A stretch of DNA of 30,370 bases from a virus. Every line of letters starts with the position of its first letter. Within the stretch, counting starts at the first letter, position 1. The stretch lies in the IMG/VR virus record IMGVR_UViG_3300047358_000111, positions 1 through 30,370 of that record. One strand, written 5' to 3'. Positions 1 through 25,109 of the stretch are shown one piece after another. The notes under the pieces are model-generated. The model was given only the letters and a program-made list of their open reading frames with translations, searched no databases and was not told the DNA's origin. The position numbers and the translations under genes are program-made.

Positions 1-18
1 AAGAGTGCGTTTGGCAGG

Positions 19-396
19 ATGCTTGGGGTGAAGGCGAGTACTGCGAGGATGGCGTTCAGTCTGAAGAGGTTCAGCAAGAAGATGGTGGCTAAATTGGAGG
101 AGTTGGAGGAGGAGTTGAATATTCAGCGTGATTTAGCGGAAGTGGATGAGATGATAGATGAGGCCCAGGAGAAGAGGGTAAGTATTATTGAGGGGATGGT
201 GAGGCAGAGTACGGGGAATGCTTTAGTGCAGGATGCGAAGGTATACGGGGTGCCTAAGAATAGATTTATTAGATTGATAGAATTTGCGGATGGTAGTCAT
301 GGGAAGTTTAGGAGCAAACCGGGTAAGTATTTGAAGTTGGGGGAGAGTGTGAAGGTGAAGCATTTGGACAGGGATATGTGGGAAGTGGTTAGATAG
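19..396 (+). CDS. Hypothetical protein, coiled-coil N-terminal half
   Basis: Unknown 125-residue protein. The frame is open to the left edge of the window, so the ATG at 19 may be internal and the gene may begin upstream. Residues about 20-60 are rich in Lys, Glu and Leu (KLEELEEELNI, then EMIDEAQEKR) and look like an amphipathic coiled coil. The last 45 residues are predicted beta-type (RFIRLIEFADGSHGKF, then KYLKLGESVKV) and end in DMWEVVR. Its TAG stop at 394-396 directly abuts the ATG at 397 and lies two bases before the methyltransferase GTG, so it is probably co-transcribed with that locus. No family recognised. Confidence 0.6.
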   Translation: MLGVKASTARMAFSLKRFSKKMVAKLEELEEELNIQRDLAEVDEMIDEAQEKRVSIIEGMVRQSTGNALVQDAKVYGVPKNRFIRLIEFADGSHGKFRSKPGKYLKLGESVKVKHLDRDMWEVVR

Positions 397-1506
397 ATGT
401 GGATAATACCCAAAACATTATCAGCTTTTGTACAGGATACGGAGGGATTGAACTTGGACTTAGACGAGCGGGCGTGGATGTTCGAACAGTCTGCAATGTG
501 GAGATCGAAGCCTTCGTCCAAGCCAACATTCTTGCGAAGATTGAAGAAGGGAGGATGGATAACGCCCCTATCTACTCGGATCTTAAAACCTTCCCTGCAC
601 GAATCTTTCGAGGAAAAATTTGTGGGGTCATTGGAGGATATCCCTGTCAGCCGTTCAGTAGCGCGGGGAAGCGAAAAGGAGAAAAAGACCCAAGACACTT
701 GTGGCCCTATATCCGAGAGCATGTCCGGGCAATTAGACCTGTTTGGTGCTTTTTCGAAAATGTCCGAGGCCACACCACGATGGGGCTATGGCGAGTCCTG
801 TCCGATTTGGAAGAAGATGGTTACCGAACGGAGTGGGGATTGTACTCAGCGGAGGAAACAGGCGCGCCTCACCAACGCATCCGATGCTTCATCTTGGCCT
901 ACTCCCCTGGAGGACGATTCGAGCAATGTGAATCCGAATGCGAAAAGAAGAACATCTTTAGTCAAGGAAGTGAGAAGCAATTGGGTGACACCAAATTCAC
1001 GGGATTGGAAGGATTCGGTGACAAAGCTCGCAAAAGATCGCAAGGACGGGAAAAAGAGGAACGATCAGTTACCTCGACAGATAGCGGAGCAGAATTGGCC
1101 CACACCGCGAGCCGGGAACCCCGGCAGTCGCAAGCCCGGAACGGGGGGCAAGATATTGGCGGAGGAAGCGAAGAACCACGCTGGCCCGCCCGCCCCGGAG
1201 AAGAGCAGTACGAGTGGGAAGAACCACGGGTCGTGGCCGACCGCTCGGTCAAGCGATGCGGAGGGCGGAAGAATAAAGACGGAGAAAACGGAGAAGGGCT
1301 TTCGGAGCAAGAGGGAGAAGAGCGATCAATACTTCGGAGCGAAACTGAGGGATGCTGCGGAGATGGAGAAACCACCCTCAATGAAGCTCAATCCGAATTG
1401 GGTGGAGCAGTTGATGGGTCTGCCTGTGGGGTGGACGCAACTGCCAACCGCGTGGACCGACTGCGCCTCCTCGGAAACGGCGTTGTCCCCCAAACCGCAG
1501 AAATAG
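397..1506 (+). CDS. WPTP-repeat protein overprinted on the methyltransferase gene
   Basis: A 369-codon ORF in a different frame that covers almost the whole cytosine methyltransferase gene. It starts at an ATG directly after the upstream stop, with a GGAAGTGG Shine-Dalgarno-like stretch at 381-388. Its protein has an ordered architecture: a basic N-terminal region, then QLDLFGAFSK and PIWKKMVTE around residues 110-140, then four tryptophan-proline units (SWPTPLED, NWVTPNSRD, NWPTPRAG, SWPTARSSD; Trp codons at 895, 982, 1096 and 1234), and a C-terminal LNPNWVEQLMGLPVGWT. I recall phage proteins with WPTP units followed by LNPxWVExLMGxPxGWT, often labelled methyltransferase-associated, so this frame looks selected and not accidental. 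Function unknown. The alternative is a by-product of conserved methyltransferase sequence. The long open frame is seen; translation is inferred. Confidence 0.5.
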   Translation: MWIIPKTLSAFVQDTEGLNLDLDERAWMFEQSAMWRSKPSSKPTFLRRLKKGGWITPLSTRILKPSLHESFEEKFVGSLEDIPVSRSVARGSEKEKKTQDTCGPISESMSGQLDLFGAFSKMSEATPRWGYGESCPIWKKMVTERSGDCTQRRKQARLTNASDASSWPTPLEDDSSNVNPNAKRRTSLVKEVRSNWVTPNSRDWKDSVTKLAKDRKDGKKRNDQLPRQIAEQNWPTPRAGNPGSRKPGTGGKILAEEAKNHAGPPAPEKSSTSGKNHGSWPTARSSDAEGGRIKTEKTEKGFRSKREKSDQYFGAKLRDAAEMEKPPSMKLNPNWVEQLMGLPVGWTQLPTAWTDCASSETALSPKPQK

Positions 1507-1547
1507 CGTGGAAAACTTTATGGGAAAAACTTTCAGAGCAATCCTAG
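399..1547 (+). CDS. DNA cytosine-C5 methyltransferase
   Basis: Transfers a methyl group from S-adenosylmethionine to carbon 5 of cytosine in a specific DNA target, probably protecting phage DNA from host restriction. Conserved motifs appear in order: motif I FCTGYGGIELGLRRAG (residues 10-25), motif IV GGYPCQPFS with catalytic Cys83, motif VI ENV (120-122), motif VIII QRIR (159-162), and a C-terminal motif X-like LRLLGNGVVPQTAEIAW. The variable target-recognition region (about 170-340) is rich in Glu, Lys, Arg and Gly. Its LAYS, LGDT, LAHT and VADR segments coincide with the WPTP units of the overlapping frame. The start must be GTG at 399, because an in-frame TAG lies at 390-392 and the next ATG is residue 53, past motif I. 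Length (382) is normal for the family. No cognate restriction enzyme is visible, so it looks like an orphan enzyme. The recognition sequence cannot be read from the protein. Confidence 0.93.
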   Translation: MDNTQNIISFCTGYGGIELGLRRAGVDVRTVCNVEIEAFVQANILAKIEEGRMDNAPIYSDLKTFPARIFRGKICGVIGGYPCQPFSSAGKRKGEKDPRHLWPYIREHVRAIRPVWCFFENVRGHTTMGLWRVLSDLEEDGYRTEWGLYSAEETGAPHQRIRCFILAYSPGGRFEQCESECEKKNIFSQGSEKQLGDTKFTGLEGFGDKARKRSQGREKEERSVTSTDSGAELAHTASREPRQSQARNGGQDIGGGSEEPRWPARPGEEQYEWEEPRVVADRSVKRCGGRKNKDGENGEGLSEQEGEERSILRSETEGCCGDGETTLNEAQSELGGAVDGSACGVDATANRVDRLRLLGNGVVPQTAEIAWKTLWEKLSEQS

Positions 1548-21459: not shown

Positions 21460-22482
21460 ATGGCGATAGGAGATACAGTACAAGCGGGCTTGGGACGGAT
21501 GGACTTCTCAGCCTTTCAGAGAGCAGGCGAAGCACAGGCGAGAGTCGGTGAAAGAATGGGGCAGACTGTCGGTGGAATAATCGATCAGTATCAGCTTAAT
21601 AGGGAGAAGCGTAATCAGCTTGAGTCAAATCTACAAGGGCAGTTATCCGCAGATCCAAGTATAGTTCAGCAACTCACAATGTCCGGAGACGAAACAAGTG
21701 ATAAGAAAAACATGGCACTTTTTCAGAAGGTTCAAAGCGGAGACGCGAGTATAGCTGACCTGGAGCGTGCAAACGGATTGCTTGCGGGTAGGACAATGCA
21801 GGAGAACGCGATGCTCAAAAGAAGAGTAGACGAGTTGAATTTCAGTATGCAGAAAGCTCTAAAAGATCCGACTATAAGCAAAGCTGTATCAGACGCACAA
21901 GTATCAAAAGCTAGAGCAAATTATGCAGATAGTATCGCAAGTGCTGAGTATGCGGACAAAATCGCAGATGCTGAATTAACAAGAGCGCAAACAGAATACT
22001 ATGACGCTAAATCAAAAGCTGAACAGAATAGTGAAACTTATACGCCAGGACAGAGAGTTGATGTTGAGGGTATATCAGGCAATAAGGTAAGCTTTGTTTG
22101 GACAGGTAGCAGTTTGCAACCTCTGAATGACTCTATAAGTAAGAAGTCTATTGAAGAAGCAATTATTCGCGGTGTAGACCCTGCGGCTATGAAGGTTTAT
22201 TTAGAGGATAATTATGACTACGATGAGGACTCTAAGTCATATACCTTTAAGGGCAAAAGCAATATGGTCGGTTATGGTGGCGGACAAAAAGATCCAATGA
22301 TGGAGCAAGCAATAACCATTCTAGGTATGCGTCCAAAAGTTAAGGATGACATATCTACCACAGTTCCAAATCAAAAAGAAAGTGTTGAGGCAAAACCTAC
22401 AATAACAACACAGGAAGAATTTGATGCCTTACCAAGTGGTGCGATATTTATAGAAAACGGGGTTGAGTACAAGAAACCATGA
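21460..22482 (+). CDS. Internal virion/DNA ejection-type protein
   Basis: A 340-residue protein starting MAIGDTVQAGLGRMDFSAFQ, preceded by AAGGAG at 21446-21451. The first 60 residues are a helical Arg/Glu-rich segment (RVGERMGQTVGGIIDQYQLN), followed by long helical stretches (SKARANYADSIASAEYADK) and a C-terminal beta motif FDALPSGAIFIENGVEYKKP, which I recall from phage ejection or tape-like proteins. The stop overlaps the next ATG as ATGA. Probably an inner head component. Confidence 0.73.
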   Translation: MAIGDTVQAGLGRMDFSAFQRAGEAQARVGERMGQTVGGIIDQYQLNREKRNQLESNLQGQLSADPSIVQQLTMSGDETSDKKNMALFQKVQSGDASIADLERANGLLAGRTMQENAMLKRRVDELNFSMQKALKDPTISKAVSDAQVSKARANYADSIASAEYADKIADAELTRAQTEYYDAKSKAEQNSETYTPGQRVDVEGISGNKVSFVWTGSSLQPLNDSISKKSIEEAIIRGVDPAAMKVYLEDNYDYDEDSKSYTFKGKSNMVGYGGGQKDPMMEQAITILGMRPKVKDDISTTVPNQKESVEAKPTITTQEEFDALPSGAIFIENGVEYKKP

Positions 22483-25109
22483 CGAGTAAGTTTGGAGGGA
22501 TTAAAGAGAATACCTCTAAGTTTGGGGGCGTACCCGTTAAATCAGAGTTGCCGCAGAGAATTGGTGGACAGGCAAGTAGATTTGGTGGTGTACCTTTGTC
22601 TTCTGCCCCACAAATAGAACAAACCGTATCCCCGGACCTCAAAGAAAAGATAGACGAGGCACCGTGGTACGAGTCTATGCTGTACGAGTTTAACAAGTTT
22701 AAATTCAATGCATTATTTGGCGGAGCGGAAGGGACCGGAGAACTTGTGTCATCAGTAGGTGAGTTATTTGGAGCAGATATTGATAACCCATTAGCCTCAG
22801 AGAAACCTAATCTCTTTCGTGATGCGATGGGCGCAATGCACGGGGTATCACAAAAGGAGTTCCAGGAGTCTACAGTTAGAGATGTCGCCAGGGTAGGGGC
22901 GCAGTTAGCTCCTGTAGGCGCCGCCTTAAATGTTGCATCAAAAGCACCAAAGGTCGCACAGGCGCTTAGTAGTGTACCCAAGGCAGTAAAGCTACCCGTG
23001 GGTGCGGCACTCACAGAATTTATCGCATTATCCGCAGACGAGAAAGGTTTGTCTGACGCAATTGGTATGGGTCCTCTCCAAAAGAAAGAGGGTGAAAGCG
23101 TATTTATGGGTAAGATGAAGAATTTGGGCGAAGGACTTGCAGGATTTGGAGGTGGAAAAGCATTATTGAAGGTTGCAGATAAGACGCTAGTACCCGCAGT
23201 AAATAAAACCTTTAGCGTGATTGAGAAAGGATTGGAGAAGGCTGACCCGATTATCCGTCCAATCAAATCAAAGATAAAAGAATTAGATCCATTTGTTGCA
23301 AGTCGCATGGATAAGTTCGAGTTGGACAACCTCATGCTCAAGCAGAACTTTGTGGATCAAATGCAACCATTCGCAGATCAATTTAAAAAGCTTTCCAAGG
23401 ATGAGCAGAAGAAATTTCAGCGCCTAACAAGTAATCCTGACTCTATGGAAAAGGCGTTTGATATGCTTAGTAAGGTTCAGAAGCGTAAGGGTATGGACGG
23501 GATAAAGGCGAACTTCCTCGCTGTGAGGAAGGGCTTGGATGATCTTCATAAATTGGCGAATGATAATGGCATAGAGATTGAGTATCGCGAGGACTACATA
23601 CCCCGCGTCATGAAAGATCATGATGGTTTTATGAAGTCACTTGGGCAAGAACCGAGATCACAACTTGAGCAAATGTTTCGAGCCGCTGAGAAGAAAAAGT
23701 TGGATGAACTTCCTGAAGGCATGAAGAGGTCTTTAAGTGACGCAGACATGAAGGATACATTGTCCTCTGCTGATAGAATAAAAATAATACAAGACTACTT
23801 TGGAGGAAACAATCTGCGTGGTAGCGGTAAAATGGGACTACAGAAAGAGCGAGTGCTTGCGTCTATTACTGATGATACACAAAAGTATTACGATGACTTT
23901 CTTGGCGGGCTACAGAAGTATGTCGATAATGTTACCTACAATGTAAATAAGAATAGATTCCTTGGTAAATCTCAAGACCCCACTGCGAAAAGTATTTTTA
24001 CGGACATTGAAAGAATCGAAGATGGAAAAGTGCAGGATGAGATTACCAAACTTGTAAGCACAAGGTTTAAGGGTGGTGAGGCCAGGATCGGTAAGGGTAC
24101 AAACATTGCACGAAATGTTATATATGCTTCAACTATAGCAAATCCATATTCGACTATTACGCAGTTGGGCGACCTGGCGTTAAACTCGTATCGTAATGGT
24201 TTAATAAATACGCTCTCTCCGTTTGGTCCCAAGATAAAACTAAAGGAGTTTGGTCTGAATGATATTGCAAGTGAGTTTACGGATGCAGGTGCTGTAAAGG
24301 GTGCGATGGATAAACTGTTCAAAGTAACAGGATTTAAAAACTTAGACATAGCCCTCAAGGAAAACAATCTGCGTGGTGCATTTCGTCAGGCACAGGGACA
24401 ACTGCGTAACAAGAACTCCAAGGCATACAAGAAATTCATCGAAGAAAATAAACCATTCTTCGAGAATGAAACCGATGATTTAATTGATGCGATCCGTAGA
24501 GGTGACTCACAAAATGAGAATGTAAGGCACTTTCTTTTCAGTAGACTTACAAAGACGCAACCAATCACGCTATCCGAGATGCCTGCGAAGTATCTAAATA
24601 TGAAAGGCGGTAGATTATTCTACTCCTTAAAGACATTTTTTGTGAAGCAACTCGATGTCATGCGTGAGGATATTGTGCAAAAGCTCGCCAAGCGTGAGAC
24701 ATCAAAAGAGGGAATACAGAATGCCGCCAGGTTCGCTATGCTATTTGGTGGAGGTACAGCCGCAGTCAACGCCACAAAGGATTTAATATTAGGCAGACCT
24801 GTAGAAATATCTGATGAATTGATGGATGTGGCAATGCAGATGATCGGTATCTCAAGGTACGCAATTTATAAGGCAAAGAGTGATGGGTTGACCGGAGGTG
24901 CTACCGCAGTAATAGCACCACCAATGCCTATAGTTAATGAAGCATTTAAGGTTCTTGCCGCAGATGACAAAGAAGAAGCATTAAAGAAGCAGAGTAAAGA
25001 GCTTGTGCGGTATATCCCTGTGGTTGGTAAGGATATTTATTGGCGGTTTGGAGCGGGAGAAGAGAAGATCAAGCAACAGCGACTTGACAAACTACGAGGT
25101 AAGGAATAG
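22479..25109 (+). CDS. Large internal virion protein with KFGG repeats
   Basis: An 876-residue protein, the last gene of the structural unit, in the slot of large ejection proteins of podoviruses. Three short N-terminal repeats occur: SKFGGI, SKFGGV and SRFGGV. An Ala/Val-rich region around residues 125-180 (LAPVGAALNVASKAPKVAQA) may be membrane-active. The long central part is helical and charged (FKKLSKDEQKKFQRL, YREDYIPRVMKD), and a later segment reads NVIYASTIANPYSTITQLGD. No lytic transglycosylase motif is recognised. The ATGA overlap couples it to the preceding gene. Function as an ejection protein is inferred from size, position and composition. Confidence 0.8.
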   Translation: MTSKFGGIKENTSKFGGVPVKSELPQRIGGQASRFGGVPLSSAPQIEQTVSPDLKEKIDEAPWYESMLYEFNKFKFNALFGGAEGTGELVSSVGELFGADIDNPLASEKPNLFRDAMGAMHGVSQKEFQESTVRDVARVGAQLAPVGAALNVASKAPKVAQALSSVPKAVKLPVGAALTEFIALSADEKGLSDAIGMGPLQKKEGESVFMGKMKNLGEGLAGFGGGKALLKVADKTLVPAVNKTFSVIEKGLEKADPIIRPIKSKIKELDPFVASRMDKFELDNLMLKQNFVDQMQPFADQFKKLSKDEQKKFQRLTSNPDSMEKAFDMLSKVQKRKGMDGIKANFLAVRKGLDDLHKLANDNGIEIEYREDYIPRVMKDHDGFMKSLGQEPRSQLEQMFRAAEKKKLDELPEGMKRSLSDADMKDTLSSADRIKIIQDYFGGNNLRGSGKMGLQKERVLASITDDTQKYYDDFLGGLQKYVDNVTYNVNKNRFLGKSQDPTAKSIFTDIERIEDGKVQDEITKLVSTRFKGGEARIGKGTNIARNVIYASTIANPYSTITQLGDLALNSYRNGLINTLSPFGPKIKLKEFGLNDIASEFTDAGAVKGAMDKLFKVTGFKNLDIALKENNLRGAFRQAQGQLRNKNSKAYKKFIEENKPFFENETDDLIDAIRRGDSQNENVRHFLFSRLTKTQPITLSEMPAKYLNMKGGRLFYSLKTFFVKQLDVMREDIVQKLAKRETSKEGIQNAARFAMLFGGGTAAVNATKDLILGRPVEISDELMDVAMQMIGISRYAIYKAKSDGLTGGATAVIAPPMPIVNEAFKVLAADDKEEALKKQSKELVRYIPVVGKDIYWRFGAGEEKIKQQRLDKLRGKE

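Follow-up and report, generated by a model that had tools for sequence, protein, structure and literature searches.

The window (the whole stretch of DNA analysed, a virus record of 30,370 bases) opens with an ORF that is followed on the plus strand by two almost fully overlapping ORFs, here called beta and alpha, of 369 and 382 codons. The sequence-only reading had described two frames open together over about 1.1 kb, and both were present as described. The features of the locus and the neighbouring nuclease gene are listed below.

1-396, plus strand: upstream ORF, entering from before the window, with its TAG stop at 394-396
397-401, plus strand: ATGTG paired start, with ATG at 397 (beta) and GTG at 399 (alpha)
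397-1506, plus strand: beta ORF, the overprinted chain, ATG start, 369 aa, in the +1 frame of alpha
397-624, plus strand: beta N-terminal extension, residues 1-76, before the PHROG_1008 match; conserved in three clades
399-1547, plus strand: alpha ORF, C5 methyltransferase chain, GTG start, 382 aa
633-659, plus strand: alpha motif IV (GGYPCQPFS), recognised from the sequence and near-invariant in the alpha alignment
895-981, plus strand: beta WPTP cassette 1, residues 167-195 (cassette analysis)
982-1095, plus strand: beta WVTP cassette 2, residues 196-233 (cassette analysis)
1096-1233, plus strand: beta WPTP cassette 3, residues 234-279; the alpha frame at 1185-1232 reads the conserved PARPGEEQYEWEEPRV
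1234-1386, plus strand: beta WPTA cassette 4, residues 280-330 (cassette analysis)
1387-1437, plus strand: beta motif-IX-like segment LNPNWVEQLMGLPVGWT, residues 331-347; never in frame with motif IV, and placed by the alignment of the L250 tail
1449-1499, plus strand: alpha motif X (RVDRLRLLGNGVVPQTA), conserved in alpha and matching the end of PHROG_1008
2427-2858: PDDEXK_14 gene, of a phage protein family; the terminase-like gene lies just downstream

The other genes of the window included, besides the PDDEXK_14 nuclease, a distant terminase-like match, a major head protein, a tail-fibre-like protein and an exonuclease. From the head, tail-fibre-like and terminase-like genes, the record is therefore a tailed-phage genome. 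No partner restriction enzyme was recognised beside the alpha/beta locus. The TAG of the upstream ORF directly abuts the beta ATG, homologues of this ORF adjoin many related loci, and translational coupling of the TAG to the ATG is possible in the window. Far from the locus, a minus-strand ORF of 297 codons (22448-23341) lies opposite an 876-aa gene (22479-25109) and may be due to chance.

Alpha possessed motifs I, IV (PCQ), VI (ENV), VIII and X. It matched PHROG_363 and, over residues 6-189, PF00145 (E=1e-29), the latter match ending at residue 189, and its core matched the solved C5 enzymes M.HaeIII and M.HhaI up to about residue 178. The catalytic-domain motifs were near-invariant in the alignment of alpha chains (A2). 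The core was followed by a long linker, mostly of low confidence in the structural model, and then by motif X at the end of the chain. Neither motif IX nor a target-recognition domain was found in alpha, by the PF00145 match and across about 370 loci. This frame had been read from the sequence as a complete C5 methyltransferase; that was mistaken, as motif IX lies in the other frame. The PARPGEEQYEWEEPRV block (alpha residues 263-278) was strongly conserved outside the canonical motifs, with related blocks in the alphas of other clades, and is possibly a contact to beta. The AF2 models of alpha (pLDDT 56.4) and beta (pLDDT 50.6) were both poor and not fit for a fold search.

Beta matched PHROG_1008, annotated as a DNA methyltransferase, over residues 77-350 (E=4e-24), while sequence searches with it against Pfam, NCBIfam and PDB gave no match. 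The N-terminal extension contains a conserved WRSKPS segment at 499-516, and it is absent from the nested gene of phage Sitara. The four WPTP-type units claimed for the 369-residue protein were recovered as WPTP at 895, WVTP at 982, WPTP at 1096 and WPTA at 1234. Their placement opposite L-A-[YH]-[ST] or a similar group in alpha held approximately, the alpha frame reading LAYS, LGDT, LAHT and VADR at the same four positions. The chain ends with the motif-IX-like segment and a short tail. In the relatives, cassettes beginning with W-x-T-P had a median length of 39 residues, numbered 1-7 per beta and lay between the motif VIII overlap and motif IX. We distinguished 43 cassette types in 42 diverse betas, and the same type recurred at different array positions; the type of window cassette 3 was the commonest and was found at positions 1, 2, 3 and 4. 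The WPTP cassettes are modules shuffled between phages and, by analogy, each of them may read a DNA sequence.

The opening of the second frame was compared with chance by permuting synonymous codons in alpha, with the protein and its codon usage kept. For the window alone, 4.3 stops were expected and the beta frame was open in 0.25% of shuffles. A set of 63 relatives with a full-length alpha was then assembled by searching with beta and with alpha; these loci are related, so that their stop counts are not independent, and 42 of them were less than 85% identical to one another in beta. The shuffles predicted 6.7 internal beta-frame stops per locus. A single locus (L122, codon 129) had one, and 62 of the 63 had no stop before the C-terminal end. 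Over beta codons 1-108, where 2.8 stops were expected per locus, none of the 63 loci had any. The third frame of the same genes contained 11-28 stops. The earlier judgement that chance opening over 369 codons is improbable was thus borne out, and the frequent second-frame stops among homologues that would have spoken against overprinting were not seen.

The sequence-only reading had also proposed that substitution rates be compared in both frames of related loci. Substitutions were classed by their effect in the two frames as silent in both (SS), silent in alpha only (SN) or silent in beta only (NS), and the control was a sham frame of the terminase gene in the same 26 genomes. The SN/SS ratio was 0.19-0.49 along the overlap, against 0.77-1.46 in the terminase sham frame; SS sites are few, which makes single ratios noisy, and the pattern was consistent across segments. 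Over the first 168 codons the ratio was 0.33-0.34. In the same stretch, third-position divergence of alpha was 0.23-0.25, about half the 0.46-0.53 of the terminase, whereas divergence at first and second codon positions was similar in the two genes. NS changes were about 3-14 times commoner than changes affecting both frames. The codon signature was of the beta-frame type around motif IX and of the alpha type around motif X. Both alpha and beta are under purifying selection along their length.

The two starts had been placed in one ATGTG, and they do lie there, two bases apart. GTG 399 is the sole canonical alpha start before motif I, since a TAG at 390-392 closes this frame upstream. In the close clade the sequence RTGTG was present at 67 of 67 loci. 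Conservation of the start was examined there in 53 non-identical sequences, which fell into 25 clusters of unrelated upstream context. Information content did not exceed 0.45 bit over positions -1 to -7; it rose to 1.26 bits at position 0, where only A or G occurred, and to 2.0 bits at positions 1-7, so that across the 25 clusters conservation sets in exactly at position 0, the RTG. The claim of a full-length overprinted gene entered at ATGTG is well backed by the conserved open frame, by the substitution patterns in both frames and by this invariant paired start.

Searches with the betas of phage C75C1 (34% identical to the window beta) and Synechococcus phage Ssp-JY39 (32%) brought up two further, more distant clades, which had the same start pattern. 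In all 194 distinct viral loci of the three clades, a beta start codon was present at the slot or one codon earlier, and an alpha start was at most 10 nt away. The alpha start was at +2 in 176 loci, at +5 in 7, at -4 in 3, at -7 in 6 and at -10 in 2, and in 70 of the 194 the GTG at +2 was the only canonical alpha start. Loci that had lost the +2 start (ATGAT) possessed an alpha start at -7 or -10, and those in which beta starts one codon earlier (ATGACATGG) kept an alpha ATG or GTG at +5. In 80 loci from bacterial and archaeal genomes, beta always overlapped alpha in the +1 frame. The beta N-terminus could be aligned in 51 of them, and 50 of these had a start codon for beta and, close by, one for alpha. 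These genomes came from Rhizobium, Sinorhizobium, Mesorhizobium, Sphingomonas, Myxococcus, Chloroflexi, Planctomycetota and a Poseidoniaceae MAG. The overlapping pairs in L340 and L353, contigs binned as Poseidoniaceae archaea, could belong to archaeal viruses or to mis-binned phage contigs.

Kohl et al. 2022 (PMC9841429) demonstrated that, both in vitro and in E. coli, initiation at AUGUG and GUGUG can open either frame. In that study the choice of frame depended on the distance to the Shine-Dalgarno sequence, with 12/14 giving both starts and a spacing of 15 favouring the ATG in E. coli reporters; rnpA-rpmH of Thermus was named as the only earlier bacterial case, and among the E. coli sites the alternative frames of pqiA and tamA were 15 and 10 aa long, narQ also being described (PMC9841429). 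In our loci, the RTG was at a spacing of 12 in six of the nine listed loci with a 7-nt Shine-Dalgarno sequence, and in 8 of 11 close-clade GTGTG loci. In close-clade ATGTG loci the spacing peaked at 15, and many of the loci as a whole had no Shine-Dalgarno sequence of at least 4 nt. We had expected the 12/14 spacing throughout, and it held in part of the loci only. No clear Shine-Dalgarno sequence was found upstream of ATGTG in the window. The sequence allows dual initiation at the paired start. The locus resembles the E. coli AUGUG/GUGUG sites (pqiA, tamA, narQ) and Thermus rnpA-rpmH in having adjacent start codons for two frames. Unlike the second products of pqiA and tamA, which have no known role, both of its products are long, selected, seemingly parts of one enzyme and conserved across phages and prophages, use of the two starts being predicted. 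We found no earlier description of a shared start in methyltransferases in the open-access papers searched.

Across about 370 loci, motif IX occurred alone in 299 ORFs, motifs IV and X together in 238, and motifs IV and IX together in none. The motif X of alpha matches the end of PHROG_1008, a profile that also covers the beta region. In L250 (2501-4039), the beta frame carries motif X directly behind motif IX, and alpha lacks motif X. In a profile alignment, the two motifs of this IX+X tail fell in register with those of single-chain phage enzymes, though the match was modest (E=0.0024); PF00145 did not match the L250 beta, and a phmmer search of the tail against PDB returned a chance match only. 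The identity of the beta motif IX rests on this one profile alignment together with the rule that IV and IX never share a frame. Since motifs IV and IX never occur in one ORF and the L250 tail aligns in this way, the two frames would carry complementary enzyme parts. Alpha and beta are most likely one two-chain C5 methyltransferase, judged by their motifs, divided like M.EcoHK31I and with beta extended back to the start of alpha. The second gene proposed from the sequence is well supported as a genuine overprinted gene. It is not, as had been supposed, a separate gene lying over a complete enzyme, as beta carries motif IX and the presumed target-recognition region.

Natural variants of the pair were found, some of which could be explained by assembly errors in metagenome contigs. 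In L269, L273 and L279-L282 the alpha frame is interrupted between motifs VIII and X; a second ORF further along that frame holds motif X, and an enzyme from such a locus would consist of three pieces. Beta was intact in L269 and L279. In L274 and L290-L292 beta was instead broken after residue 107, and the core ORF, with the WPTP units and motif IX, had a new ATG (MQYELFSQ). The annotated nested gene of Paenibacillus phage Sitara, gp60, starts 184 nt inside alpha and comprises the core only. Because the broken-beta loci and the Sitara gene all keep it, the beta core looks like the minimal partner. The N-terminal part reaching the start of alpha is the distinguishing feature of the variant in the window.

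The variants bear on where translation of beta begins. Its core might arise solely by initiation inside the gene, at ATG 721 (residue 109) for instance, with ATG 397 and the open N-terminal stretch unused, as gp60 of Sitara and the new ATG behind the 107-residue part in L274 and L290-292 would suggest. We consider this unlikely: all 63 loci are open over codons 1-108 against the 2.8 stops per locus expected, this stretch is selected in the beta frame (SN/SS 0.33), the N-terminal protein is conserved in three clades and the RTG is invariant. Programmed frameshifting from alpha would yield one fused chain and no separate subunit, and its order of motifs I-VIII, a beta region with IX, and then X is that of a canonical single-chain enzyme. 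Two shifts would however be required, into beta and back for motif X; the open and selected beta frame from the start of alpha and the conserved RTG would be left unexplained; motif X has moved to beta in L250, and alpha is broken with beta intact in L269 and L279. We rejected frameshifting, which has very little probability left, because openness and selection in the beta frame extend back to its own start.

It is also improbable, though a little less so than frameshifting, that beta is an unrelated protein with a function of its own, such as an inhibitor or a DNA-binding factor, overlapping alpha by happenstance. Its N-terminal part has no known relative, the poor AF2 model gives no fold for beta, and the statistics tying beta to motif IX are modest. 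Against such a protein, alpha lacks motif IX in every locus while nearly all betas have an IX-like motif, motif X adjoins that motif in the L250 beta frame, a single profile, PHROG_1008, spans the beta region and motif X, and M.EcoHK31I provides a precedent. Least credible is an untranslated second frame that is open merely as a by-product of composition or strong codon constraint. The linker of alpha is rich in charged residues, which lowers the stop frequency in other frames, but shuffles that keep protein and codon usage still give 6.7 stops per locus, the terminase control is without such constraint, and the beta codon signature dominates at motif IX. The codon shuffles and the terminase control led us to reject an origin of the open beta frame by composition or chance, and we assign it a negligible probability.

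The reading of alpha and beta as two overprinted chains of one enzyme can be set against several known systems. The small chain of M.EcoHK31I is also read from another frame inside the gene of the large chain. M.EcoHK31I is described as a two-chain C5 methyltransferase acting at YGGCCR for which both chains are needed (PMC3404938, its reference 18), the large chain having motifs I-VIII and X and the small chain motif IX (PMC3404938). The likeness to our locus, with I-VIII and X in alpha and IX in beta, lies in the described division of motifs. Beta here differs in running from alpha's own start over nearly the whole gene (369 of 382 codons), in its extra N-terminal part and in its WPTP array. 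The Paenibacillus phages with Sitara gp59/gp60 (“g59 internal gene”, PHROG_1008) have the same +1 overlap: the inner frame encodes WPTP-type units and motif IX, the outer one motif X. Unlike in the window, the inner gene has neither the N-terminal extension nor a shared start. M.AquI is likewise a C5 enzyme in two chains. Its small chain has both IX and X, as does the beta of L250, whereas in the window X stays in alpha.

Multispecific C5 methyltransferases, such as M.H2I and those of the SPR/phi3T type, have their recognition domains between motifs VIII and IX. To our knowledge, no WPTP units are present in these enzymes of Bacillus phages. Exchangeable units between VIII and IX are a shared trait, as given in literature cited in PMC8936443, but the Bacillus-phage enzymes are single chains in a single frame, whereas the window has two chains in two frames and recognition by its cassettes is putative. 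The ShiLan domain (PMC11855218), an HNH gene, is likewise concealed within a phage methylase gene and read in another frame; it differs in being an inserted homing element of unrelated function that has a start of its own 18 bp inside the insertion.

We suggest, with a probability of about 0.78, that the locus encodes two overprinted chains of one C5 methyltransferase, which are both started at the shared site, assemble and act as an anti-restriction orphan methylase. Alpha would supply the SAM-binding and catalytic motifs I-VIII and motif X, and beta would supply motif IX and probably also the target-recognition region, made of the WPTP cassettes. The location of this region in beta is at odds with M.EcoHK31I, for which PMC3404938 puts the predicted target-recognition domain in the large chain. 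Ribosomes would be recruited to a single site, by a Shine-Dalgarno sequence in many relatives and perhaps by coupling to the upstream stop in the window. There they would pick either ATG 397 for beta or GTG 399 for alpha, so that one position on the mRNA could give both subunits. The two chains would then assemble into an active methyltransferase, whose specificity would be set by the beta cassettes. The phage probably uses it as an orphan methylase that protects its DNA from host restriction, a use we infer from the established roles of orphan phage methylases. With somewhat less confidence than in this mechanism, we think it likely that RTGTG and its near variants are a deeply conserved standard start for both subunits in a large class of phage and prophage C5 methyltransferases, whose cassettes are shuffled while remaining readable in two frames.

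The layout recurs in hundreds of phage and prophage relatives and is therefore no accident. It has left a gap in annotation: the Synechococcus phage records L132 (PP438429) and L381 (OM868082) have an identical beta sequence, yet one annotates only beta, as a “hypothetical protein”, and the other only alpha. The loci offer candidate methyltransferases of many specificities, and their cassette arrays, under constraint from both frames, are well suited to a study of how overprinted genes recombine. Reporter experiments established dual initiation at AUGUG in 2022; the second products of pqiA and tamA are tiny peptides (PMC9841429). Hundreds of natural phage and prophage loci with such a start and two long selected ORFs make the dual-start idea directly testable. 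If it is true, these loci would be natural examples of an AUGUG-type start serving two frames, with two full-length products that function as partners.
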